From a virus, in IMG/VR virus record IMGVR_UViG_3300010158_000370, positions 1 through 21,291 of that record: 21,291 nt of DNA; one strand, given 5' to 3'. The notes under the pieces are model-generated. The model did not search any database and was not told the DNA's origin. It worked only from the letters and a program-made list of their open reading frames with translations. Below are positions 5,521 to 18,779 of the stretch, piece after piece. The translations under genes were made by a program, and so were the position numbers. Position 1 is the first letter of the stretch, and each line of letters opens with the position of its first letter.

Positions 5521-5895
5521 GTGCGAGCTCGAGAATTTCTTGCTGAAAAGCAAGAAGGCAAACTCACCAAGCGTCAGCAACAGCCCACAGTTGGGCTGCA
5601 CAAATTTCGTGACCCGGGTGGTTACGATCGTGCTTATGAACTCAATCGAGTCATGATGGCAGTGGCCTGTGCTGATGGCACTGACGCACCAATTGACATG
5701 GATCAGGCTAGCTGGGTTGGAAAATATAATACTGCTAGCCCATACACCAAAGAAGAACAAAAAATGCTGAAACAGGCCTTCAAAGCTGTTGGCAGCGAAA
5801 CACACGATTTAAATCACGGTGATTTGGAAAGTAAAGAACTTGAATCAACCAACAAGTCTAGTCCTGTAAAGGGATTCAAAGGATATCCTAGATGA
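5521..5895 (+). CDS. Twin head-protein candidate A (MRAREFLAE...SPVKGFKGYPR)
   Basis: A 124-residue protein starting at GTG, unknown in function. The first nine residues, MRAREFLAE, end in an L-x-E prohead-protease-type site and resemble the T4 capsid targeting peptide. The last eleven, SPVKGFKGYPR, recur exactly at the end of the next gene. The middle carries LTKRQQQPTVGLHKF, then a helical YELNRVMMAVACADG segment, and then a KEEQKMLKQAFKAVG helix, with no catalytic signature. The stop overlaps the next start as ATGA, so the two are probably translated as a coupled pair. I infer that the N-terminus is a removable head-targeting tag and the basic C-terminus a shared docking or DNA-binding tail. 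A pair of non-virion proteins sharing a common ancestor cannot be excluded. Confidence 0.6.
   Translation: MRAREFLAEKQEGKLTKRQQQPTVGLHKFRDPGGYDRAYELNRVMMAVACADGTDAPIDMDQASWVGKYNTASPYTKEEQKMLKQAFKAVGSETHDLNHGDLESKELESTNKSSPVKGFKGYPR
5860..5895 (+). repeat. 36-base direct repeat, copy 1 (end of twin A)
   Basis: This stretch and 6243-6278 match at 32 of 36 bases. All four differences are third-codon changes that leave the peptide SPVKGFKGYPR and the stop unchanged. The repeat therefore reflects protein-level conservation. It could still serve as a site for recombination between the twins. Confidence 0.75.
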
Positions 5896-6278
5896 GAGCT
5901 AGAGAGTTTATTACTGAAGAACAAAAGTTGCCACCCGAGCAAGGTGACCCACTTCGCCAAACTTTTATACTTCCAGGATTAAGTTCCGATCAACCATATC
6001 AAATTTATAGATTTGGCGTGGCAATGGCCCGTGCTAGAAGCGATGCAGTCAAAGATGAGTTAAATCCTTATATATTGCCCTGGAACAAAAAAGAAGTGTT
6101 TGGAAATCATGCTGTGGTAGCTGGTATGAACAACACAGTAGATCCTATTATAGATCAAGCATTACAAATGACCAACACTCCAGATGGAAAAAAATTAATT
6201 GGTACAGGTCGCAGTGAGGAACCTCCTAGCACTGACACAACCAGTCCTGTAAAAGGCTTCAAAGGTTATCCAAGATGA
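5892..6278 (+). CDS. Twin head-protein candidate B (MRAREFITE...SPVKGFKGYPR)
   Basis: A 128-residue paralogue of the preceding gene, overlapping it by ATGA. Its first nine residues MRAREFITE differ from the neighbour's only at the L-A/I-T pair, which still fits an (L/I)-x-E cleavage site. Its last eleven residues are identical to the neighbour's. The central part is strongly diverged, with a shared helical register (QIYRFGVAMARARSD against ELNRVMMAVACADG) followed by an Asn/Pro-rich region containing NPYILPWNKKEVFGNHAVVAGM. Conserved ends around a variable core suggest a family whose core varies in function or partner while its localisation is kept. Its stop overlaps the start of the exported nuclease. 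No enzymatic motif is visible. Confidence 0.6.
   Translation: MRAREFITEEQKLPPEQGDPLRQTFILPGLSSDQPYQIYRFGVAMARARSDAVKDELNPYILPWNKKEVFGNHAVVAGMNNTVDPIIDQALQMTNTPDGKKLIGTGRSEEPPSTDTTSPVKGFKGYPR
6243..6278 (+). repeat. 36-base direct repeat, copy 2 (end of twin B)
   Basis: Second copy of the 36-base repeat shared with 5860-5895. The differing positions are 12, 15, 24 and 30, all silent. The same ATGA stop/start overlap follows each copy, so the junction architecture is duplicated together with the coding end. Confidence 0.75.
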
Positions 6279-6985
6279 AAAAGTTATTATTAGTATTACT
6301 CTTTGTTCCACTTGCGGCTCTGGCACAGATCAACGCTCAATGCCCACAGTTCACAGCCAACGGCACACCCGAATATCAAGCTCAATCAGGTGATCAAGAG
6401 ATCTGCCACACCAACTATGCTGTGATCCACCGCTGTAGTGTCAAAGCTCCAGTTGCAGTTTTTGAACACTTGACCATGGCCGCAATGACTGGTCCGGCTA
6501 AACGCAAGGATAACTTCCGTCCAGATCCAGCTGTAACGCCTAACTGCTCTGCTAACCTAGCTGATTATGCCACTGTAGGTCGCACACATGACCGCGGACA
6601 CATGGCTCCAGCTGGCAACAACACACAGAACGATGCCATCATGAGTGAGAGTTTTTTCCTAAGCAACATGGTAGCACAAGTAGCCAACAACAATCGCGGC
6701 ATTTGGAAACAGTTAGAAACTTGGGAACGTCAGTGGGCCACAGCTCCGGGCACAGACTTCTACATCATCTCAGGCGGCATCTACGATCCAGGGCATCCTG
6801 TAACAGGCAATGGTCTAGGAATTCCTACACGCCTATACAAGATCATCATTGAAAAGAACAGCCGTAATGTTCAAGCATACTTGATGCCAAATACCGCACT
6901 GCCGGTGGCAGATTTACCTAAGTATCAAGTACCTATGGCAACAGTAGAGCAAGCAACTGGTATGCGTTTTAATTTAGGTCCGTAA
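6275..6985 (+). CDS. Exported DNA/RNA non-specific endonuclease (NUC1/Serratia nuclease type)
   Basis: A 236-residue beta-beta-alpha-metal nuclease of the Endonuclease_NS family. The signature TVGRTHDRGHMAPAGNN (residues 100-116) contains D-R-G-H, with His109 the expected general base. ANNNRGIWKQLE (137-148) supplies the expected metal-ligand Asn and the following helix. The N-terminus is a classical Sec signal: MKK, a Leu/Val/Phe core (4-16), and a likely cut after ALA at residue 17. There is no lipobox. Cys at 23, 44, 54 and 91 could form disulphides outside the cytoplasm. The ATG overlaps the previous stop (ATGA). The enzyme would degrade nucleic acid in the periplasm or outside the cell. 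Plausible roles are destroying DNA of competing phages during entry, or clearing host DNA and salvaging nucleotides on lysis. Family assignment is firm and the role is inferred. Confidence 0.9.
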   Translation: MKKLLLVLLFVPLAALAQINAQCPQFTANGTPEYQAQSGDQEICHTNYAVIHRCSVKAPVAVFEHLTMAAMTGPAKRKDNFRPDPAVTPNCSANLADYATVGRTHDRGHMAPAGNNTQNDAIMSESFFLSNMVAQVANNNRGIWKQLETWERQWATAPGTDFYIISGGIYDPGHPVTGNGLGIPTRLYKIIIEKNSRNVQAYLMPNTALPVADLPKYQVPMATVEQATGMRFNLGP

Positions 6986-7007: not shown

Positions 7008-8150
7008 ATGGCACAATTTAAAATAACTGATAACCCCACATTTTGTTCTGCACCTTGGACAGGCCTAAACATTGATCAAGAAGGTAACACGTCGTGTTGT
7101 TTTATGATGACCCGGCCTATAGGAAATATCAAATCTCAGCCCATTGACAAAATACTCAATGGACCAATGCATATTGAAATCAAACAGGCCATGGCTCAGG
7201 GGCAGTGGCATCCGCACTGTCAACGATGTCAACATTTTGAATCAATTGATGGTACCAGTGCAAGAACTCGTCGTCGGTGTAATCAAGAATCATTAGACAA
7301 GATCAACAATGATTTTGATTGGTTTGAGCCTCAGCATGTATCAATTAACTGGAGTAACCTGTGTAATTTAACCTGCACCTATTGTAATCCTCAAACCAGT
7401 ACCGCCTGGCAAGCGGCCAAAAAACTTCCCATAACACACATAAAAAATGAACATGACAGTTTGATAAAGCTGGCCAGGAATCAAGGAAAAAAACTGCAAG
7501 GCCTATGTCTTGGCGGCGGCGAACCACTTTTACAACCTGGACTGTTGGAATTTCTCAATGAGTTAGACCCTAACCAAGTTAATGTAATGGTTACCACAAA
7601 TCTCAGTATTGATTTAACCAAAAATAAAATTTATCAAGAATTAAAAACCTGGCCCACAGTAGAATGGCAAATTAGTTTTGATAATTGTAATAAACAAAAA
7701 TTTGAATATGTTAGGCACGGAGCCAACTGGGAACAATTTGTTGACAACGTAAAAATTTTACAACAAGATCAACAGCGAGTAATGGCACATCCAGCATACT
7801 CAATTTATTGTGCATTTGATTTAAAAGAATATTATGAATTTTGTAAACAACACAATTTAGAAATCTTTTGGTGCGATGTAACTCATCCTTGGTCCTTGGA
7901 TGTTTGTCGACTTCCTAAACCGTTAAGAGATCTTGCCATTGCTGAGATTGACTATGTAGTCAAAAACTACGCTAATGCTCCTGGATCGTTTAATATTTTG
8001 CTACAGTATCGCAAAAGATTGTTAGATGATACGTTTACAGCTCCTAAAGTAGGGCCAATAGAATGGCATACGCAGATAGAAAAAGAGTTAAATAAAACCA
8101 CAACATTTGAACAGTTGTGGCCAGGCCTTGTAGAACAATTAAGGAATTAG
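7008..8150 (+). CDS. Radical SAM protein with N-terminal twitch-type domain (copy 1)
   Basis: A 380-residue radical SAM enzyme. The SAM-binding [4Fe-4S] motif is C119-x3-C123-x2-C126 (WSNLCNLTCTYCNPQ). LGGGEPLLQP (168-177) is the family's GGEP motif. The strand MVTTNLS (204-210) and QISFDN follow in the barrel order. Before the core, C13 (FCSAPWTGL), C30/C31 (TSCCF) and C71-x2-C74 (CQRC) form a four-cysteine set. This matches the N-terminal twitch-type radical SAM proteins found in marine phages and should bind an auxiliary cluster. The gene begins 22 bases after the nuclease and ends two bases before large terminase, whose ribosome site (AAGGA, 8141-8145) lies inside this gene's end. The substrate is unknown. 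It is one of four related copies in the window. Confidence 0.85.
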   Translation: MAQFKITDNPTFCSAPWTGLNIDQEGNTSCCFMMTRPIGNIKSQPIDKILNGPMHIEIKQAMAQGQWHPHCQRCQHFESIDGTSARTRRRCNQESLDKINNDFDWFEPQHVSINWSNLCNLTCTYCNPQTSTAWQAAKKLPITHIKNEHDSLIKLARNQGKKLQGLCLGGGEPLLQPGLLEFLNELDPNQVNVMVTTNLSIDLTKNKIYQELKTWPTVEWQISFDNCNKQKFEYVRHGANWEQFVDNVKILQQDQQRVMAHPAYSIYCAFDLKEYYEFCKQHNLEIFWCDVTHPWSLDVCRLPKPLRDLAIAEIDYVVKNYANAPGSFNILLQYRKRLLDDTFTAPKVGPIEWHTQIEKELNKTTTFEQLWPGLVEQLRN

Positions 8151-11831: not shown

Positions 11832-11850
11832 TTCTACATTCTGAACAACC

Positions 11851-11872
11851 GCGTCATAAATATACTTGACGC
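11851..11872. repeat. Inverted repeat GCGTC-12-GACGC around a late box
   Basis: Five-base arms GCGTC (11851-11855) and GACGC (11868-11872) flank ATAAATATACTT. The left arm touches the CATAAATA box and the right arm overlaps the -35 element TTGACG. A protein bound here could control both promoters. The short arms could also have arisen by chance. Confidence 0.35.
11855..11862 (+). promoter_or_regulatory. Late promoter box CATAAATA before gp32
   Basis: CATAAATA is identical to the box at 2565-2572 and differs from the T4 late consensus TATAAATA only in the first base. It lies about 130 bases before the gp32 ATG and upstream of the intrinsic terminator. A transcript from it would therefore have to pass that terminator, or would produce only a short RNA. 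Confidence 0.5.
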
Positions 11873-11894
11873 TAAGAAATAAAGCGTGTACACT
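11866..11894 (+). promoter_or_regulatory. Sigma70-type promoter (TTGACG-17-TACACT) for gp32
   Basis: TTGACG (11866-11871) matches five of six bases of the -35 consensus. After exactly 17 bases comes TACACT (11889-11894), matching four of six bases of the -10 consensus. The expected start near 11901 gives a leader of about 90 bases ahead of the gp32 ATG. This is the best host-type promoter seen in the window. It fits early or middle expression of gp32 and the recombination genes by host RNA polymerase. Confidence 0.6.
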
Positions 11895-11916
11895 ACACAA
11901 GTGAATACGCTTTTTT
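11882..11916 (+). terminator. Intrinsic terminator ending the 9732 transcript
   Basis: AAGCGT (11882-11887) pairs with ACGCTT (11907-11912). Inside it, CACT and AGTG can pair around a five-base ACACA loop. The 3' arm runs into six Ts (11911-11916), as in a rho-independent terminator. The -10 element lies within the hairpin DNA, so RNA started at about 11901 would lack the left arm and escape termination. The element therefore stops transcripts from upstream without affecting its own promoter. Confidence 0.6.
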
Positions 11917-11928
11917 CTTTAGTATCAC

Positions 11929-11985
11929 AGGCAACGTAATCTAAAATTTAGATAGGCAACAACCATAAACAATTTGAAAGGCAAC
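11929..11985 (+). repeat. Three AGGCAAC repeats at exact 25-base spacing in the gp32 leader
   Basis: AGGCAAC occurs at 11929-11935, 11954-11960 and 11979-11985, with starts 25 bases apart each time. The third copy contains the gp32 ribosome-binding site (AAAGG at 11977-11981, nine bases before ATG). A 15-base palindrome sits between copies 1 and 2. T4 gp32 is known to repress its own translation by binding its mRNA leader, starting from a structured upstream site. This phased array is a candidate for an equivalent operator, or for binding of another repeat-reading regulator. Confidence 0.6.
11939..11953. repeat. Perfect palindrome ATCTAAA-A-TTTAGAT in the gp32 leader
   Basis: Two seven-base arms are separated by one A and lie exactly between the first two AGGCAAC repeats. 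As DNA it could bind a dimeric regulator. As RNA it could form a weak six-pair hairpin with an AAU loop. Its place in the leader suggests a role in gp32 control, perhaps as the structured nucleation point that the T4 gene 32 leader has as a pseudoknot. Confidence 0.5.
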
Positions 11986-11990
11986 TTATT

Positions 11991-12986
11991 ATGGCATCAT
12001 TAGCAGAAATCCGTGCGAGACTCGCACAATCAGAAGGTAAACAACAAGGCGGCAACTCCACAGGTGGTGATAATGCAATTTATCCACACTGGAATATGGA
12101 AGAAGGCGGAGCCGCAACACTCAGATTCCTCCCAGACGGTAACTCAAAGAACACATTCTTTTGGCAAGAACGTGCTATGATCCGTTTACCATTTAACGGC
12201 GTCAAAGGTGAGATGGAATCAAAACAAGTATATGTTCAGGTTCCTTGCGTAGAAATGTGGCAAGAGACTTGCCCAGTGTTGACAGAAGTTCGCACTTGGT
12301 TCAAGGACAAGAGTCTAGAAGAAATGGGTCGTAAGTATTGGAAAAAGCGTAGTTATATTTTCCAAGGCTTTGTTCGTGAGAATCCTCTTGCCGATGACAA
12401 GGCTCCAGCTAACCCAATTCGTCGTTTTATTATTGGTCCTCAGATCTTTACAACTATCAAGTCCGCATTGATGGATCCAGAGTTGGAAGAATTGCCAACA
12501 GACTTGATGCGTGGCTTGGACTTCCGTATCACTAAAGGTAGTAAAGGCGGCTTTGCTGACTACTCAGGATCAAAGTGGGCACGTAAAGAAACAGCACTCA
12601 CAGAAGCTGAACAAGCAGCCATTGCTGAACACGGATTGTTTGATCTTTCAACATTCTTACCAAAGAAACCAACTGACGTTGAGTTGAAAGTAATCAAAGA
12701 AATGTTTGAAGCGTCAGTTGATGGTCAAAGCTATGACACAGAACGTTGGGGTCAGTATTTCCGCCCAGCAGGTGTTAATGCTCCAGCAGGTGGATCAGCA
12801 CCAGTAACCGAAAGTGCTCCTGCACAAACCAGTGGGTTTGCGGCAACAGGAACTACTACATCAACAACATCAAGTGACTTTGACGATGAAGAGCCACCAG
12901 TGGCAACGGCTCCTGTAGCGGCTGCACCAGCAACTCAAAAAGCCGAAGACATCTTGGCAATGATTAGGGCCCGTCAAAAAGCCTAA
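11991..12986 (+). CDS. gp32: Single-stranded DNA-binding protein gp32
   Basis: A 331-residue T4-type ssDNA-binding protein (T4 gp32 has 301) that coats replication and recombination intermediates and cooperates with UvsX and UvsY. The N-terminal LAEIRARLAQ is followed by the OB-fold region. That region has GGAATLRFLPDG (39-50), FFWQERAMIRLPFNG (56-70), VYVQVPCVEMW (80-90), GRKYWKKRSYIFQGFVREN (113-131) and RRFIIGPQIFTTI (144-156), a pattern shared with cyanophage gp32. A Pro/Ala/Ser linker leads to an acidic stretch (DFDDEEPP) and a final helix ILAMIRARQK. Only two cysteines (86 and 94) lie in the area of the T4 zinc site (His64, Cys77, Cys87, Cys90), so the classical zinc finger appears to be missing. 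Expression is likely controlled through the repeat-bearing leader upstream. Confidence 0.9.
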   Translation: MASLAEIRARLAQSEGKQQGGNSTGGDNAIYPHWNMEEGGAATLRFLPDGNSKNTFFWQERAMIRLPFNGVKGEMESKQVYVQVPCVEMWQETCPVLTEVRTWFKDKSLEEMGRKYWKKRSYIFQGFVRENPLADDKAPANPIRRFIIGPQIFTTIKSALMDPELEELPTDLMRGLDFRITKGSKGGFADYSGSKWARKETALTEAEQAAIAEHGLFDLSTFLPKKPTDVELKVIKEMFEASVDGQSYDTERWGQYFRPAGVNAPAGGSAPVTESAPAQTSGFAATGTTTSTTSSDFDDEEPPVATAPVAAAPATQKAEDILAMIRARQKA

Positions 12987-12989
12987 TTA

Positions 12990-13649
12990 ATGTTGTCGTA
13001 TTTAGATCGCATTTTGTTTCCAGACCGCTGTGAGGTAATAGAAGTCATACCCTCACAGCGGTATGTCTATGTTATTTTTAAAAATGGACATAGTAGTTTT
13101 AATAATTTTAAAATAATAAATCCTCGTCAAATTTTCATTAATCAACAGATTCAAAAACTAAACAATATTGACGTTATTATACGAAACCCAGAAGATAGAT
13201 TACCTTCAGGAATTAATACATTTATACATCATACTCTTAGAGACAATCCTGACCTTGATCCGTTCACAGTAGAATGGTTTGCTTTAAATTATTTGTCTTT
13301 AAATCGTCATTACACTTCACAATTTTCGTGGTTGTTAAATTTGGCAAGATATTTAGATATCAACACAAAATTAAACTTTTTACCAATGGATGCCATTAGT
13401 GAAATAACCGGACTTAATAAAAAACCAGTAGGAGTTTCTCCGGTATCTGCAGAATTAATAGAAAAAATTTCACTAATAAAAAACAATGAAATGTATCACC
13501 GAATAGACACAGTTATATTTGATTGCATTGGACAGACTATGACATTTGCCCAATTATTGCAACATATTAAAACAACCGACCCGGCCGCATACGCATATGT
13601 AATCGGATATGCACAACAAATTTTAAATCCAACTTATGCATTGTCCTAG
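12990..13649 (+). CDS. Hypothetical protein, AT-rich, coupled to radical SAM copy 2
   Basis: A 219-residue protein that I do not recognise. The N-terminus is a small beta-rich unit (CEVIEVIPSQRYVYVIFKNGHSSF). The centre is helical (PFTVEWFALNYLSLNRHYTSQFSWLLNLARYLDI), and a Lys/Ile/Asn-rich helical C-terminus ends in AYAYVIGYAQQILNP. No catalytic signature, signal peptide or clear transmembrane helix is present. Its codons are visibly richer in A and T (many TTT, TTA, AAT, ATT, ATA) than those of gp32 before it, which suggests more recent acquisition. It starts three bases after the gp32 stop without a clear ribosome site, and its last 14 bases overlap the radical SAM gene. A partner or substrate carrier for that enzyme is possible. 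This is inference from position only. Confidence 0.5.
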   Translation: MLSYLDRILFPDRCEVIEVIPSQRYVYVIFKNGHSSFNNFKIINPRQIFINQQIQKLNNIDVIIRNPEDRLPSGINTFIHHTLRDNPDLDPFTVEWFALNYLSLNRHYTSQFSWLLNLARYLDINTKLNFLPMDAISEITGLNKKPVGVSPVSAELIEKISLIKNNEMYHRIDTVIFDCIGQTMTFAQLLQHIKTTDPAAYAYVIGYAQQILNPTYALS

Positions 13650-14511
13650 ACTAGATCATTTTGTACGTTTTAACCCTAACGGAACTGTAAGTCGTTGTGG
13701 ACATATGGTCAACGCACCACAATTCGATACATTGGCTGATATGGAATCAAGTATGTGGTTGGCAAAAACAAAAGAAAAAATGTCTCGTAACGAATGGCCT
13801 AGTGAATGCGTTCGTTGCCAAGAAACAGAACCCAACAGTATAAGAGTCTACGCTACAGAATTGGACAATAAAACTCAACAACAAAATTATCTACAAGTAG
13901 GTGGTGTATTAGATAACCTATGTAATGCGGCCTGTCAAACATGTAATGAAAATTTAAGCAGTAGGATAGGCAGTCTAACAGGTCCTGGGTTTCCTATTGT
14001 CAACAATCTTGAACAGTTTTGGCAACTACCACAAGATCGTATTGTTCATTTAGATATCAATGGCGGAGAACCTGGCTACAGTAAAAACTACAAGAAAATT
14101 TTAGCCAACCTACCACCAAATTTAAAAACCCTTAGGCTCAACACAAATTGTAGTACTGTGTTAACCGAGCTGGCAGAGATTGCTACACGTGGCATAGAAG
14201 TTACAGTTACAGTTAGTTGTGACGGCATCGGCCCAGTACATGATTTTGTACGTTGGCCAATTCCGTGGCAAGAGTTTTATCGTAATCTCATGTCATATAA
14301 AACTATGCCGGTTAAACTTAATTTATGGACCACAGTTAGTGTATTAAACGTAGATGATCTTTCAAATATTCAAAAGTTTGCTCAAGAGCACAGCATTGAT
14401 CACAGTTATGCTTATTTAAAACAGCCGTATGAATTGAGTGTAGATAACACCGACCTGGTCGCTCGTCAAACATATATAAGCAAACAGAAACAATTGAGGG
14501 GTATTGAGTGA
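13636..14511 (+). CDS. Radical SAM protein with N-terminal twitch-type domain (copy 2, short)
   Basis: A 291-residue radical SAM enzyme, the shortest of the four here. The cluster motif is C96-x3-C100-x2-C103 (LDNLCNAACQTCNENLSSR), followed by LDINGGEPGYS (139-149) and the strand LRLNTNCS (166-173). The N-terminal auxiliary-cluster set is C3, C21 and C58-x2-C61, with SRCGHM and ECVRCQETE. The chain ends soon after the barrel and lacks the 80-100 residue extension of the longer copies. This may be a smaller substrate lid rather than truncation, since the stop forms a GTGA overlap with the next start. The 5' end overlaps the unknown gene by 14 bases. The tight linkage to the dehydrogenase downstream suggests that the two act in one pathway. 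The substrate is unknown. Confidence 0.82.
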   Translation: MHCPRLDHFVRFNPNGTVSRCGHMVNAPQFDTLADMESSMWLAKTKEKMSRNEWPSECVRCQETEPNSIRVYATELDNKTQQQNYLQVGGVLDNLCNAACQTCNENLSSRIGSLTGPGFPIVNNLEQFWQLPQDRIVHLDINGGEPGYSKNYKKILANLPPNLKTLRLNTNCSTVLTELAEIATRGIEVTVTVSCDGIGPVHDFVRWPIPWQEFYRNLMSYKTMPVKLNLWTTVSVLNVDDLSNIQKFAQEHSIDHSYAYLKQPYELSVDNTDLVARQTYISKQKQLRGIE

Positions 14512-15053
14512 AAATAGCAATTACTGGACACACCGCTGGCATTGGCCAAGCCCTGGCCAATGAATACACACTTGACGGACATGAAATTATAGGACTTAGT
14601 CGCCGCAACGGCAATAACATACGCAACACGCCTAAAATTTGTGATCAAATTGAACCTTGTGATGTGTTTGTTAATAATGCTCAAGCCGGGTACGCACAAA
14701 CTGAATTGTTATTTGAAATGGCTCAGCGGTGGCAAGGTACTAAAAAACACATTATTGTTGTTAGTACCATGATGACGCAAGATCCTATTAGTGTGTTGCC
14801 AGGATTAGATATGCTATCTTATCATCAACAAAAAGTTACCTTAGAGGAAATGGTCAAACAACTACGCCATCAACGCCTTGGCATATCTATTACTATTGTC
14901 AGGCCTGGATACATTGCCACACAACCAGGACAAACTGTACCACCTGCTGCAGATGTCAACAACTGGGCCAGAACGTTATTGGATTTATTTGACATGGCTA
15001 AACATAATAATCTGTCAGTTCCAGACATATCCTTGGGGCCACAGAATTTATGA
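14508..15053 (+). CDS. Short-chain dehydrogenase/reductase (SDR)
   Basis: A 181-residue NAD(P)-dependent oxidoreductase of the classical SDR type, shorter than the usual 250. All key parts are present: TGHTAGIG (residues 6-13) for the nucleotide, NNA at 56-58, Ser86 (VVSTMM) and Y105-x3-K109 (YHQQK) as the catalytic set, and RPGYIAT after beta-6. It therefore looks active. SRR at 31-33 after the second strand would favour NADP over NAD. It starts at GTG (GAGGGG, 14496-14501, six bases upstream). Its start overlaps the previous stop (GTGA) and its stop overlaps the next start (ATGA), so it is translated between two radical SAM enzymes. Oxidising or reducing an intermediate shared with them, such as a sugar or nucleotide-linked keto group, is inferred. 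Confidence 0.85.
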   Translation: MKIAITGHTAGIGQALANEYTLDGHEIIGLSRRNGNNIRNTPKICDQIEPCDVFVNNAQAGYAQTELLFEMAQRWQGTKKHIIVVSTMMTQDPISVLPGLDMLSYHQQKVTLEEMVKQLRHQRLGISITIVRPGYIATQPGQTVPPAADVNNWARTLLDLFDMAKHNNLSVPDISLGPQNL

Positions 15054-16204
15054 CGCCAAAAGATATCCTAACAAATCAACATTTTTGTCCTATGCCGTGG
15101 ACAGGACTAATGTATAACTCAGATGGTAAAGTTAAAAATTGTATTCGCAGTGATGAAAAAACTGGCTTACTAGGCAATATTAAAGATATACCTATTGAAG
15201 AAATATTACTAGGTAATACAAACGTAACCAAACAAACAAATATAACCAATAACAAACCGGCTGCCGGATGTCATACCTGTTACGATTTAGAACATGGTAA
15301 AAAAGGTCTCGATATTATCAGCGATAGAATTTTTTACATACGAGAATTTAAAAAAACGCCGCTAGATACATATCAAGTTAATAACTTTGATCTTCAAACC
15401 ATTGATGTGCGTTGGACTAATTTGTGTAATTTTGCCTGTGTATATTGCAGTCCAGAGTTTAGCAGTCGCTGGGCCAATGAATTAAATGTCCAAATTAAAA
15501 CGCCTTCTGAGAATCAGTTGACCAACTTTAAAGAATACATTTATCGTCATGCTAAAAATCTCAAACATGTTTATCTAGCCGGCGGCGAACCGTTGTTGAT
15601 GAAAGAAAATTTAGAGTTGCTCAAAGAATTAAACCCTGAGGTTAATCTCAGGATAAACACTAATCTTAGTAAGGTTGACACAGGGGTGTTTGATACTGTA
15701 TGCGGTTTTAAAAATGTTCACTGGACTGTGAGTGTAGAAACTGTAGAAGAAGAATTTGAATATATTCGATTTGGTGGTCAATGGTCTGATTTTTTAGATA
15801 ATTTAAACACAATCAGAAAATTAGACCACAAAATAAGTTTTAATATGTTATGGTTTTTATTAAATTATGATACGGTGTTTGGGTGTGTAGATTACCTAAA
15901 AAGTCTGGGATTCCATAACAACAGCTTTGTTATTGGAGCATTGCTAACTCCAGAATACCTAAACATTAGACATTTACCAGAAAATGTGTTAAACTTATTA
16001 AAGACTAAGTTGGAATCTAAAATTAATGAGCGGCCTGGATATCTTCTCGAGGATAGTTATTGCAATATGCTACACTATATAGAACAACCAATTGACCAAA
16101 ATTTAGCAGGATCGTTTGAAAAGTTGACCGTAATGGATCAGCGGCGTGGAGTAGACAGCAGTAAGATTTTTACAGAATTATACAAACTTAAAGAAGGAAA
16201 GTAA
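15050..16204 (+). CDS. Radical SAM protein with N-terminal twitch-type domain (copy 3)
   Basis: A 384-residue radical SAM enzyme most like copy 1 in layout. It opens with HFCPMPWTGL (C13), then KNCIRS (C31) and GCHTCYDLE (C74-x2-C77) as the N-terminal cluster set. The core motif is C126-x3-C130-x2-C133 (WTNLCNFACVYCSPEFSSRW), then LAGGEPLLM (176-184) and RINTNLS (201-207). The segment YIRFGGQWSDFLDNLN matches YVRHGANWEQFVDNVK of copy 1, so these two share the late barrel strands as well. It overlaps the dehydrogenase by ATGA and ends two bases before uvsX, whose AAGGA-type site is inside this gene's end. Relatively AT-rich codon choice suggests a different history from uvsX. The substrate is unknown. 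Confidence 0.85.
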   Translation: MTPKDILTNQHFCPMPWTGLMYNSDGKVKNCIRSDEKTGLLGNIKDIPIEEILLGNTNVTKQTNITNNKPAAGCHTCYDLEHGKKGLDIISDRIFYIREFKKTPLDTYQVNNFDLQTIDVRWTNLCNFACVYCSPEFSSRWANELNVQIKTPSENQLTNFKEYIYRHAKNLKHVYLAGGEPLLMKENLELLKELNPEVNLRINTNLSKVDTGVFDTVCGFKNVHWTVSVETVEEEFEYIRFGGQWSDFLDNLNTIRKLDHKISFNMLWFLLNYDTVFGCVDYLKSLGFHNNSFVIGALLTPEYLNIRHLPENVLNLLKTKLESKINERPGYLLEDSYCNMLHYIEQPIDQNLAGSFEKLTVMDQRRGVDSSKIFTELYKLKEGK

Positions 16205-16206
16205 TC

Positions 16207-17262
16207 ATGGCAAAACCATTTGACGTATCAAAGTTCCGCAAGGATATCACTAAGAGCATTGACGGACTTAGTATTGGATTTAACGATCCTACTGATTGGA
16301 TCAGCACAGGCAACTTTGCACTAAACTATTTGATCAGCGGCGATTTTAACAAAGGCATTCCTTTAGGTAAAGTAACAGTGTTTGCCGGCGAATCTGGTGC
16401 GGGTAAAAGTTATTTCTGCTCAGGTAACATTATTAAAAACGCACAGGAGCAAGGTATTTTTGTCATCTTGATTGACAGTGAAAATGCACTGGATGAGGAT
16501 TGGCTTAAAGCGTTAGGTGTTGATACCAGCGATAGTAAATTGCTTAAATTGAGTATGGCCATGATTGATGATGTGGCCAAGACAATTAGCACATTTATGA
16601 GTGACTACAAAGCACTTCCAGACGGCGAACGTCCTAAGGTTTTATTTGTTATTGACTCGTTGGGCATGTTGCTTACACCAACTGACGTCAATCAGTTTGA
16701 TGCAGGTGAAATGAAAGGTGACTTGGGTCGTAAACCCAAAGCACTTACAGCATTGGTTCGTAACTGCGTAAACATGTTTGGTAGTTACAATGTGGGTCTA
16801 GTGTGTACAAACCATACCTACGCAAGTCAAGACATGTTTGATCCAGACGACAAGATCTCAGGTGGTCAGGGCTTTATCTATGCGTCAAGTATCGTGGTTG
16901 CCATGAAGAAAATGAAGCTGAAAGAAGATGAGGATGGCAACAAGATCACTGACGTTATGGGTATCCGTGCTGGCTGTAAGGTTATGAAAACTCGTTATGC
17001 CAAACCGTTTGAAGGTGTGCAAGTTAAGATTCCGTATGAAACAGGTATGAATCCCTACTCAGGCATGGTAGACATGGCTGAGAAACGTGGCCTGCTCAAG
17101 AAAGAAGGCAACAGTCTAGCGTTTGTGACTAGTGATGGCGAAGTAATCAAACAGTTCCGTAAAAAGTGGGAAGCCAATGAAGGCGGGTGTTTAGACAAAC
17201 TCATGACCGACTTTAACAATCAAAAAACGGTAAGTACTGAAGAAACAGCCACGGAGGAATAA
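16207..17262 (+). CDS. uvsX: RecA-like recombinase UvsX
   Basis: A 351-residue T4-type recombinase (T4 UvsX has 391) that forms filaments on ssDNA and performs strand exchange for recombination-dependent replication and repair. Walker A is GESGAGKS (61-68), and VLFVIDSLGML (145-155) carries the Walker B Asp. LIDSENALDEDWL (88-100) holds the glutamate region. The N-terminal part STGNFALNYLISGDFNKGIPLGKVTVFAG is the UvsX signature before the ATP site, and SGGQGFIYASSIVVAM (218-233) fits the DNA-binding loop region and the strand after it. The C-terminus ends in an acidic Thr/Glu tail. It follows a radical SAM gene by two bases. Its partner UvsY is separated from it by an acidic protein and another radical SAM gene. 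Confidence 0.95.
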   Translation: MAKPFDVSKFRKDITKSIDGLSIGFNDPTDWISTGNFALNYLISGDFNKGIPLGKVTVFAGESGAGKSYFCSGNIIKNAQEQGIFVILIDSENALDEDWLKALGVDTSDSKLLKLSMAMIDDVAKTISTFMSDYKALPDGERPKVLFVIDSLGMLLTPTDVNQFDAGEMKGDLGRKPKALTALVRNCVNMFGSYNVGLVCTNHTYASQDMFDPDDKISGGQGFIYASSIVVAMKKMKLKEDEDGNKITDVMGIRAGCKVMKTRYAKPFEGVQVKIPYETGMNPYSGMVDMAEKRGLLKKEGNSLAFVTSDGEVIKQFRKKWEANEGGCLDKLMTDFNNQKTVSTEETATEE

Positions 17263-17265
17263 TAG

Positions 17266-17526
17266 ATGTCAGTAGAATTAAGCAAAGAAATTTGGGACGA
17301 ACTTAAACGTTATGTTAACCCGCAAGATCGCGATGAAGCCGCAGAAACACTAGTTTCAGTGTTAATTGATAACGATTGTGATGCTGCTGACATCAAAAGT
17401 GTGTTTAAAAACGACTCTGGAGTCAAGGCCGCTCTAGCAAGTTATCTTAAAGATCACGCCGATGACGAAGAAGATGAAGAAGAAGATGACAACTACGATG
17501 ATTTTGAGGAAGACGACGACTATTAA
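17266..17526 (+). CDS. Small acidic-tailed protein between uvsX and radical SAM copy 4
   Basis: An 86-residue protein with a strong ribosome site (GGAGG, 17253-17257). The first 65 residues look like a small helical domain (SKEIWDELKRYV, EAAETLVSVLIDNDCDAADIKSVF, VKAALASYLKDHA). The last 21 are almost all Asp, Glu, Tyr and Asn (for example DEEDEEEDD). Such tails in ssDNA-binding and recombination accessory proteins compete with DNA or dock partners. Its position next to uvsX fits a recombination accessory role. Its stop overlaps the radical SAM start (TAATG). With a single Cys and no clear leader/core division it does not look like a peptide substrate for that enzyme, although this is not ruled out. 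Its function is unknown. Confidence 0.6.
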   Translation: MSVELSKEIWDELKRYVNPQDRDEAAETLVSVLIDNDCDAADIKSVFKNDSGVKAALASYLKDHADDEEDEEEDDNYDDFEEDDDY

Positions 17527-18779
17527 TGTCTAATAAATTTTTTCCAATCAAAACTGAAACTGCTTGCAAGTTAAAATGGAATTGGAATACTATTCGACTC
17601 TACAACGGGCTTACTAGCTCATGTCATAGAGTCGATGGTGATGTAGTGTCGGCCGAAACATTTGATACTTTTCATAATACACCAAAAAAATTAGCAGATA
17701 GAACTCTTATGTTACAAGGGCAATGGCCAACTGGTGGCTGCGAGTATTGCAAAAATATTGAAACAGCCGGTGGATCTAGTGATCGGCTGTTTCATCTTGC
17801 TATTCCAGATCAAGTTCCGCCTGAGCTGTTTGACAATCCTACTGCTGTAAATGTAACACCTACCATTGTTGAAGTATATCTTGACAATGTGTGTAACATG
17901 AGTTGCATTTATTGTTGGGACGGATTTAGCAGCCGCATTCAACAGGAAAATATTCAATTTGGACGCTTTGAAAAACAAGGTGTGGTAATTGATAACCGAG
18001 CAGAAAAAGCTAAAGACTTTGATACATTGTCTGACAAATTTTGGTCATGGATGAGCACAAACTACAAGACCTTGGGTAGGTTTCATGTCTTGGGTGGAGA
18101 ACCCTTTTATCAACCGCAATTTGACCGCTGTTTGGAACTGTTGGAAACGCATGAAAATCCAGAGTTGGAATTTAACGTTGTTACCAATTTAAAAACTCCA
18201 CACAATCGTTTGGTCAAGATAATTGACCGCATACATCAAATAGTTTTGCAAGGACGAATTAAACGATTTGATCTCACAGTCAGTATTGATTGTTTTGGTC
18301 CAGAACAAGAGTATGTGAGATTTGGCCTGGATCTTGACCAATGGCGAAGTAATTTTGAATATCTAGTTGAACAACCTTGGATAACTTTAAATATCAATCA
18401 GACTTTGTCCGGTCTTACTATTAAAACAGTGCCAGACTTGTTACAATATATAAATTTGTTACGCACTGATAGAGAAATTGGACATTATTTTTCAACCACA
18501 GTGATGACTTATGATTTTTTACATCCAGAAATTTTTGGACCTGGATTTTTTGATCAAGACTTTGAAAAGATTTTATCTGTTATGCCCAACGATACGTGGC
18601 AACAACAACAGGCTAAAAAATACATGCAAGGAATACAATTGCAAATAAATTCTGGCCAGCAAAATCAAGAAAAAATAAATCAATTGGTGGTGTTTTTAGA
18701 CGAAATAGATCGTAGACGTAATCTCGATTGGAAAGAAACATTTCCGTGGCTAGTAAAGGAATTAGAAAATGTGGTATAG
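17526..18779 (+). CDS. Radical SAM protein with N-terminal twitch-type domain (copy 4)
   Basis: A 417-residue radical SAM enzyme, the longest and most divergent of the four. The N-terminal Cys set is C14 (ACKLKWNW, in place of the W-T-G segment of copies 1 and 3), C33 (SSCHRVDGDV) and C72-x2-C75 (GCEYC). The core motif is C123-x3-C127-x2-C130 (LDNVCNMSCIYCWDGFSSR), then HVLGGEPFYQP (197-207), FNVVTNLK and LTVSIDCFG. A long Gln/Asn-rich C-terminal helix region follows. It lies between the acidic protein (1-base overlap) and uvsY (11-base overlap), so it is translated together with the recombination genes. The WDGFSSR/ENLSSR/PEFSSR sequence after the cluster is shared among copies 2-4 and shows common ancestry. 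The substrate is unknown. Confidence 0.85.
   Translation: MSNKFFPIKTETACKLKWNWNTIRLYNGLTSSCHRVDGDVVSAETFDTFHNTPKKLADRTLMLQGQWPTGGCEYCKNIETAGGSSDRLFHLAIPDQVPPELFDNPTAVNVTPTIVEVYLDNVCNMSCIYCWDGFSSRIQQENIQFGRFEKQGVVIDNRAEKAKDFDTLSDKFWSWMSTNYKTLGRFHVLGGEPFYQPQFDRCLELLETHENPELEFNVVTNLKTPHNRLVKIIDRIHQIVLQGRIKRFDLTVSIDCFGPEQEYVRFGLDLDQWRSNFEYLVEQPWITLNINQTLSGLTIKTVPDLLQYINLLRTDREIGHYFSTTVMTYDFLHPEIFGPGFFDQDFEKILSVMPNDTWQQQQAKKYMQGIQLQINSGQQNQEKINQLVVFLDEIDRRRNLDWKETFPWLVKELENVV

Follow-up and report, generated by a model that had tools for sequence, protein, structure and literature searches.

T4-like phages from aquatic environments are known to carry several radical-SAM genes, and a 183-kb marine T4-like genome holds 12 of them (PMC5332604). 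In pelagimyophages, radical-SAM gene cassettes are located in the host-recognition cluster and are gained or lost between related phages (PMC7029224). Small sulfotransferase genes have been described in cyanophages and OM43 phages, and the role of sulfotransferases in phages was stated to be unclear (PMC10580990). Radical-SAM and sulfotransferase genes therefore recur in aquatic phages without an assigned function (PMC5332604, PMC10580990).

The locus analyzed here lies in an IMG/VR record of 21,291 bases (the whole stretch is hereafter called the window) with T4-like gene content (gp17, gp32, uvsX, and uvsY), and it shares features with each of these systems. As in the multi-copy genome of PMC5332604, members of the N_Twi_rSAM family are abundant in the three longest contigs related to the window, with 9 to 15 matches each; however, the cassette combines two radical-SAM genes with an SDR gene and a sulfotransferase gene as a fixed set at the gp32-uvsX junction, and one of its radical-SAM proteins scores below the family cut-off. 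Cassette-like gain and loss of radical-SAM genes is shared with the pelagimyophages, whereas the position is gp32-uvsX and not the host-recognition cluster, and PMC7029224 mentions no sulfotransferase. The sulfotransferase gene is small, like those of PMC10580990, but here it overlaps and is tied to a specific radical-SAM partner. No description of the four-gene cassette was found in the literature searched, which covered few subscription journals. The new element is thus the four-gene set at gp32-uvsX, whereas multiple phage radical-SAMs, radical-SAM cassettes, and phage sulfotransferases were already known. Our main reading, to which we give a probability of about one half, is that this set is a four-enzyme auxiliary metabolic cassette, inherited as a unit in the gp32-uvsX hotspot of some T4-like phages, whose enzymes form one pathway leading to a sulfated product.

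Gene Organization of the Cassette

The cassette occupies positions 12990-16204 and, like its flanking genes, is encoded on the plus strand. The upstream flank is gp32 (11991-12986), an ORF for the ssDNA-binding protein with orthologues in both cassette-bearing and empty loci, and its stop codon lies 3 nt upstream of the cassette. The cassette itself comprises genes for a probable small sulfotransferase (12990-13649), the short radical-SAM protein rSAM2 (13636-14511), a short SDR (14508-15053), and the radical-SAM protein rSAM3 (15050-16204). The recombinase gene uvsX (16207-17262), recognized by tblastn matches of 60-68% to phage UvsX/RecA-like proteins, starts 2 nt past rSAM3. The originally predicted arrangement was exact, with all four ORFs present between gp32 and uvsX and overlapping by 14, 4, and 4 nt. 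Because 4-nt overlaps recur elsewhere in this compact window (at 5892, 6275, and 19218), overlap alone is weak evidence for a unit, and the strong evidence comes from co-inheritance across relatives.

Same-frame homologues of the four genes were present in dozens of IMG/VR contigs, and the median dN/dS values (sulfotransferase, 0.23; rSAM2, 0.08; SDR, 0.10; rSAM3, 0.075; compared with 0.12 for gp32 and 0.05 for uvsX) showed purifying selection on all four, indicating that they are real genes. Elsewhere in the window, positions 6275-6985 encode an endonuclease of the non-specific DNA/RNA type (Endonuclease_NS), whose N-terminus resembles a signal peptide.

Co-inheritance of the Four Genes

Samples collected with the cassette genes as bait are biased; gp32 and uvsX were therefore used as bait, and the resulting cassette-independent sample comprised 108 contigs carrying both genes. 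All four cassette genes were present in 24 contigs and none in 82, while 2 contigs contained only a sulfotransferase/rSAM2-like pair, so that 24 of the 26 cassette-bearing loci were complete. The cassette-free contigs split into 37 in which gp32 directly preceded uvsX and 45 with other inserts. Among the loci found with cassette bait, 76 intervals were complete, and 71 of these kept the order gp32-sulfotransferase-rSAM2-SDR-rSAM3-uvsX, whether or not further genes had been inserted; rSAM2 was the next recognized gene in all 54 further loci found via the sulfotransferase. The proposal that the four genes act as one unit was thereby supported: independent occurrence and scrambled order were looked for in relatives, and a fixed order with near all-or-none presence was found. 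These results demonstrate that the cassette is a co-inherited insertion in the gp32-uvsX hotspot.

Half-cassettes also occurred, with some relatives carrying only the sulfotransferase-rSAM2 pair and others only the SDR-rSAM3 pair (L299 and L309 have one half only, and L029 has rSAM3 only). In four further loci (L006, L013, L049, and L054), SDR-rSAM3 was kept, and the sulfotransferase and rSAM2 were replaced after gp32 by a different rSAM and a 184-185-aa protein, for which a Pfam search gave no match. The half-cassettes point to two sub-modules and make two half-pathways possible. The highest pairwise distance correlation was that between rSAM2 and the SDR (r = 0.73), with 0.67 for gp32 and uvsX. 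Subsets of relatives had additional genes, namely a second SDR, a weakly GDSL-like gene past rSAM3, or a 157-158-aa gene between rSAM2 and the SDR (L023, 5408-5881; L005, 2326-2799; L047, 2543-3019), which in L023 was weakly Asp/Asn-hydroxylase-like.

Characterization of the Encoded Enzymes

The first gene of the cassette (U219, 12990-13649) had been labeled an unknown protein, a label that its structural model, fold matches, and motif residues replace with that of a very probable small PAPS-dependent sulfotransferase. Its AlphaFold2 model was confident (pLDDT 90), and the top viral structure match in BFVD, at 39% identity, was a phage protein labeled "Sulfotransferase family" (E 1.2e-14, TM 0.80/0.86). 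After structural realignment against the PDB (VIA), the first 33 rows were PAPS sulfotransferases, with a modest best Z of 5.7 (rmsd 4.7, 143 aligned); the Foldseek E value against the PDB was just 0.02. In a 74-sequence alignment, K31 in a KxGxS-like loop and the residues R65-x-P67-x-x-R70-x-x-S73-G74 were invariant, as would be expected of the two phosphosulfate binding sites of sulfotransferases (5'-PSB and 3'-PSB). A Pfam search of the window's own sequence gave no match, whereas Sulfotransfer_2 was the commonest Pfam match among the relatives (16 of 74, best E 0.0015). Only chance matches were obtained with the profile against PDB sequences, and the single match from tblastn against isolated phages was marginal and fell under a PsbA gene.

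The sulfotransferase was the fastest-evolving gene of the cassette, with a mean protein distance of 0.52 compared with 0.28-0.32 for the other three. In one relative (L139, 9355-10011), identity to window positions 12990-13649 was approximately 60-75% over most of the gene, in flanks that were mostly 90-100% identical, showing that the sulfotransferase can be exchanged as a single-gene allele. A swap of this gene within nearly unchanged surroundings suits a target under host-driven selection.

The radical-SAM proteins were compared with the N_Twi_rSAM model (NF033640; curated cut-off, 170 bits). rSAM3 (239.9 bits), rSAM4 (17526-18779; 226.1 bits), and rSAM1 (7008-8150; 196.6 bits) were above the cut-off, whereas rSAM2 scored 130.6 bits over profile positions 12-335 of 398, with the C-terminal part missing; by sequence, rSAM2 is a shorter, divergent relative of this family. 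The CxxxCxxC motif (CNAACQTC in rSAM2) and GGEP were invariant in 42 rSAM3 and 59 rSAM2 sequences, placing both proteins in the radical-SAM superfamily. Across the 59 rSAM2 sequences, C3, C21, C58, C61, C96, C100, and C103 were invariant, the protein having an N-terminal four-Cys (twitch-like) region, and N-terminal cysteines were conserved in both cassette enzymes. In rSAM3, an N-terminal twitch radical-SAM protein with an AF2 model of pLDDT 91, the Radical_SAM and SPASM models of Pfam both scored over the cut-off, and the SPASM match was N-terminal (residues 13-78). The two had been described as radical-SAM copies 2 and 3, but at 23-28% identity they are old paralogues rather than recent copies. 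Every genomic position had its own rSAM clade in the tree, which makes rSAM2 and rSAM3 separate enzymes rather than duplicates.

SuiB and SkfB are peptide maturases, and BlsE, DesII, and MoaA are small-molecule enzymes. In the PDB fold comparison, rSAM3 matched many radical-SAM enzymes about equally, including all five of these, and no single substrate class was picked out; the comparison thus favors neither of the reactions proposed earlier, deoxygenation and epimerization. Among PDB sequences the best match was SkfB, and SPASM maturase models were matched weakly. The twitch region of rSAM3 weakly matched that of BtrN, a radical-SAM alcohol dehydrogenase with a twitch domain (E 0.00097), but the match was limited to the twitch and the domain order is reversed. 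By tblastn against isolated phages, rSAM3 had no match, and rSAM2 had only matches of approximately 21% in Vibrio phages, with an uninformative neighborhood. For viperin (pVip), the best cassette score was 35.9 bits, far below the NCBIfam viperin cut-off of 180; a search of a defence-system library returned only weak viperin matches, via the radical-SAM core.

For the SDR (14508-15053), the complete Ser-Tyr-Lys set that had been predicted was confirmed, with Ser86, Tyr105, and Lys109 invariant in 46 of 46 aligned sequences. The TGHTAGIG nucleotide motif was likewise invariant in the 46 sequences, as expected of the SDR superfamily, and adh_short of Pfam scored 30.2 bits (cut-off, 26.6). The protein has 181 residues (169-190 in relatives), fewer than the approximately 250 of a classical SDR. 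By general SDR rules, the SxR that is conserved past the second strand suggests NADP(H) as the cofactor. No match to the SDR was obtained by tblastn against isolated phages, and a scan of cellular genomes with the SDR alignment found just two distant loci.

Proposed Pathway and Alternative Explanations

In the proposed pathway, rSAM2 and rSAM3 would oxidize or rearrange a substrate via 5'-deoxyadenosyl radicals, with an auxiliary Fe-S cluster bound by the N-terminal cysteines, the SDR would reduce (or oxidize) a carbonyl with NAD(P)H, and the sulfotransferase would add sulfate from host PAPS. An APS kinase-like match, a weak one, was found in just one of the three large relatives, so PAPS would need to be supplied by the host. 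The original prediction of radical, SDR, and radical chemistry on one substrate remains reasonable as a sequence of radical and redox steps; it missed the sulfotransferase, whose presence alters which pathway is likely. The product would most likely be sulfated and belong to the surface of the cell or virion, as a sugar, a glycan, or a small metabolite. We infer the co-transcription, the shared pathway, and the reaction order, and more weakly a glycan or surface target. By linking both enzyme families to one testable pathway, the co-inherited set offers defined genes to express.

Concerning the substrate, the rSAM genes of the large relatives lie close to genes for carbamoyltransferase, DegT aminotransferase, NAD-epimerase, cytidylyltransferase, and UDP-sugar dehydrogenase, and in L171 (G003 116000-133000) and L166 (G001 9000-28000) about five N_Twi_rSAM genes cluster together with genes for carbamoyltransferase and for ADI/amidinotransferase-like proteins. 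These sugar-type neighbors, an association that concerns other rSAM copies and not this cassette, together with the lack of a precursor peptide in the cassette, make a glycan or small metabolite a likelier substrate than a peptide or DNA. Peptide or protein modification, in which the twitch radical-SAMs would act on a peptide or on a phage or host protein (RiPP-like or virion) and the sulfotransferase would sulfate a side chain, is consistent with the maturases among the rSAM3 fold rows, with SkfB as the top PDB sequence match, and with the weak SPASM maturase matches. We nevertheless consider it unlikely: the overlapping genes leave no room for a precursor-peptide ORF between them, no RRE-like gene was recognized, the twitch/SPASM region is N-terminal in rSAM3 but C-terminal in RiPP maturases, and small-molecule enzymes match the same folds. 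Less probable still is chemistry on nucleotides or nucleic acids, such as the production of a nucleotide analogue as by viperin or the modification of DNA bases. The replication neighborhood speaks for it, as do the weak matches of rSAM2 and rSAM3 to viperin models (22-37 bits), but these matches are restricted to the shared radical-SAM core, the hotspot holds unrelated metabolic genes too, and we are aware of no phage base-modification system that uses a sulfotransferase.

The remaining alternatives concern the unity of the cassette. The half-cassettes and the loci with another upstream pair would be expected if sulfotransferase-rSAM2 and SDR-rSAM3 were two independent modules that share one hotspot and act on different substrates; the top distance correlation, however, joins the two halves, and nearly all cassette-bearing loci of the cassette-independent set are complete, leaving this explanation improbable to a similar degree as peptide modification. 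The single-gene exchange of the sulfotransferase also counts against a unit pathway, since cassette genes are able to move singly. That the genes merely hitchhike, as unrelated accessory genes piling up in a permissive hotspot that hosts many other inserts, seems the most remote explanation, given that they occur all together or not at all, keep one order, are under purifying selection, and stay tightly packed in divergent relatives. For the single pathway with a sulfated product, a more specific version is tentatively put forward, namely that the two radical-SAMs, the minimal SDR, and the sulfotransferase might produce a sulfated compound by radical chemistry, one that remodels the surface of the infected cell or virion, with strain variation through exchange of sulfotransferase alleles.

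Transcription and Insertion at the gp32-uvsX Hotspot

Many unrelated inserts occur between gp32 and uvsX, some of them weakly ADI-like or GDSL-like. All 37 empty junctions (L249, L208, and L182 among them) contained a hairpin whose stem measured 8 bp or more. In 82 of 90 filled loci, the gap between gp32 and the first cassette gene was at most 12 nt, too short for a hairpin, and in 77 of 90 uvsX began at most 13 nt past the end of rSAM3 or overlapped it. A possible reading is that the hairpin is a terminator or regulatory hairpin that most cassette carriers have lost.

Upstream of gp32, a consensus scan (9/12) identified a sigma-70-like promoter, TTGACG-N17-TACACT (11866-11894, plus strand), whose -35 and -10 elements were kept in seven aligned relatives, with TATACT in several. 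The gp32 leader (window 11840-11990) also had a conserved strong hairpin (z -3.6) overlapping the -10 element and three AGGCAAC repeats spaced exactly 25 nt (11929, 11954, and 11979), two of which were fully conserved in the seven aligned relatives; the repeats and hairpin may form an autoregulatory element. The T4 late-promoter motif TATAAATA was not above chance. The suggestion of co-expression with gp32 gained sequence-level support from the conserved TTGACG-N17-TA(C/T)ACT promoter and the hairpin loss in most cassette loci. Because of these two features and the tight packing, gp32, the cassette, and uvsX are probably one transcription unit from the host-type gp32 promoter. The gp32-uvsX replication locus serves as an insertion hotspot, and a cassette in place of the hairpin may tie metabolism to the genes for recombination. 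The gap before uvsY (window 17526-18779) is a second hotspot, in which rSAM4 is present, absent, or swapped for another rSAM clade.
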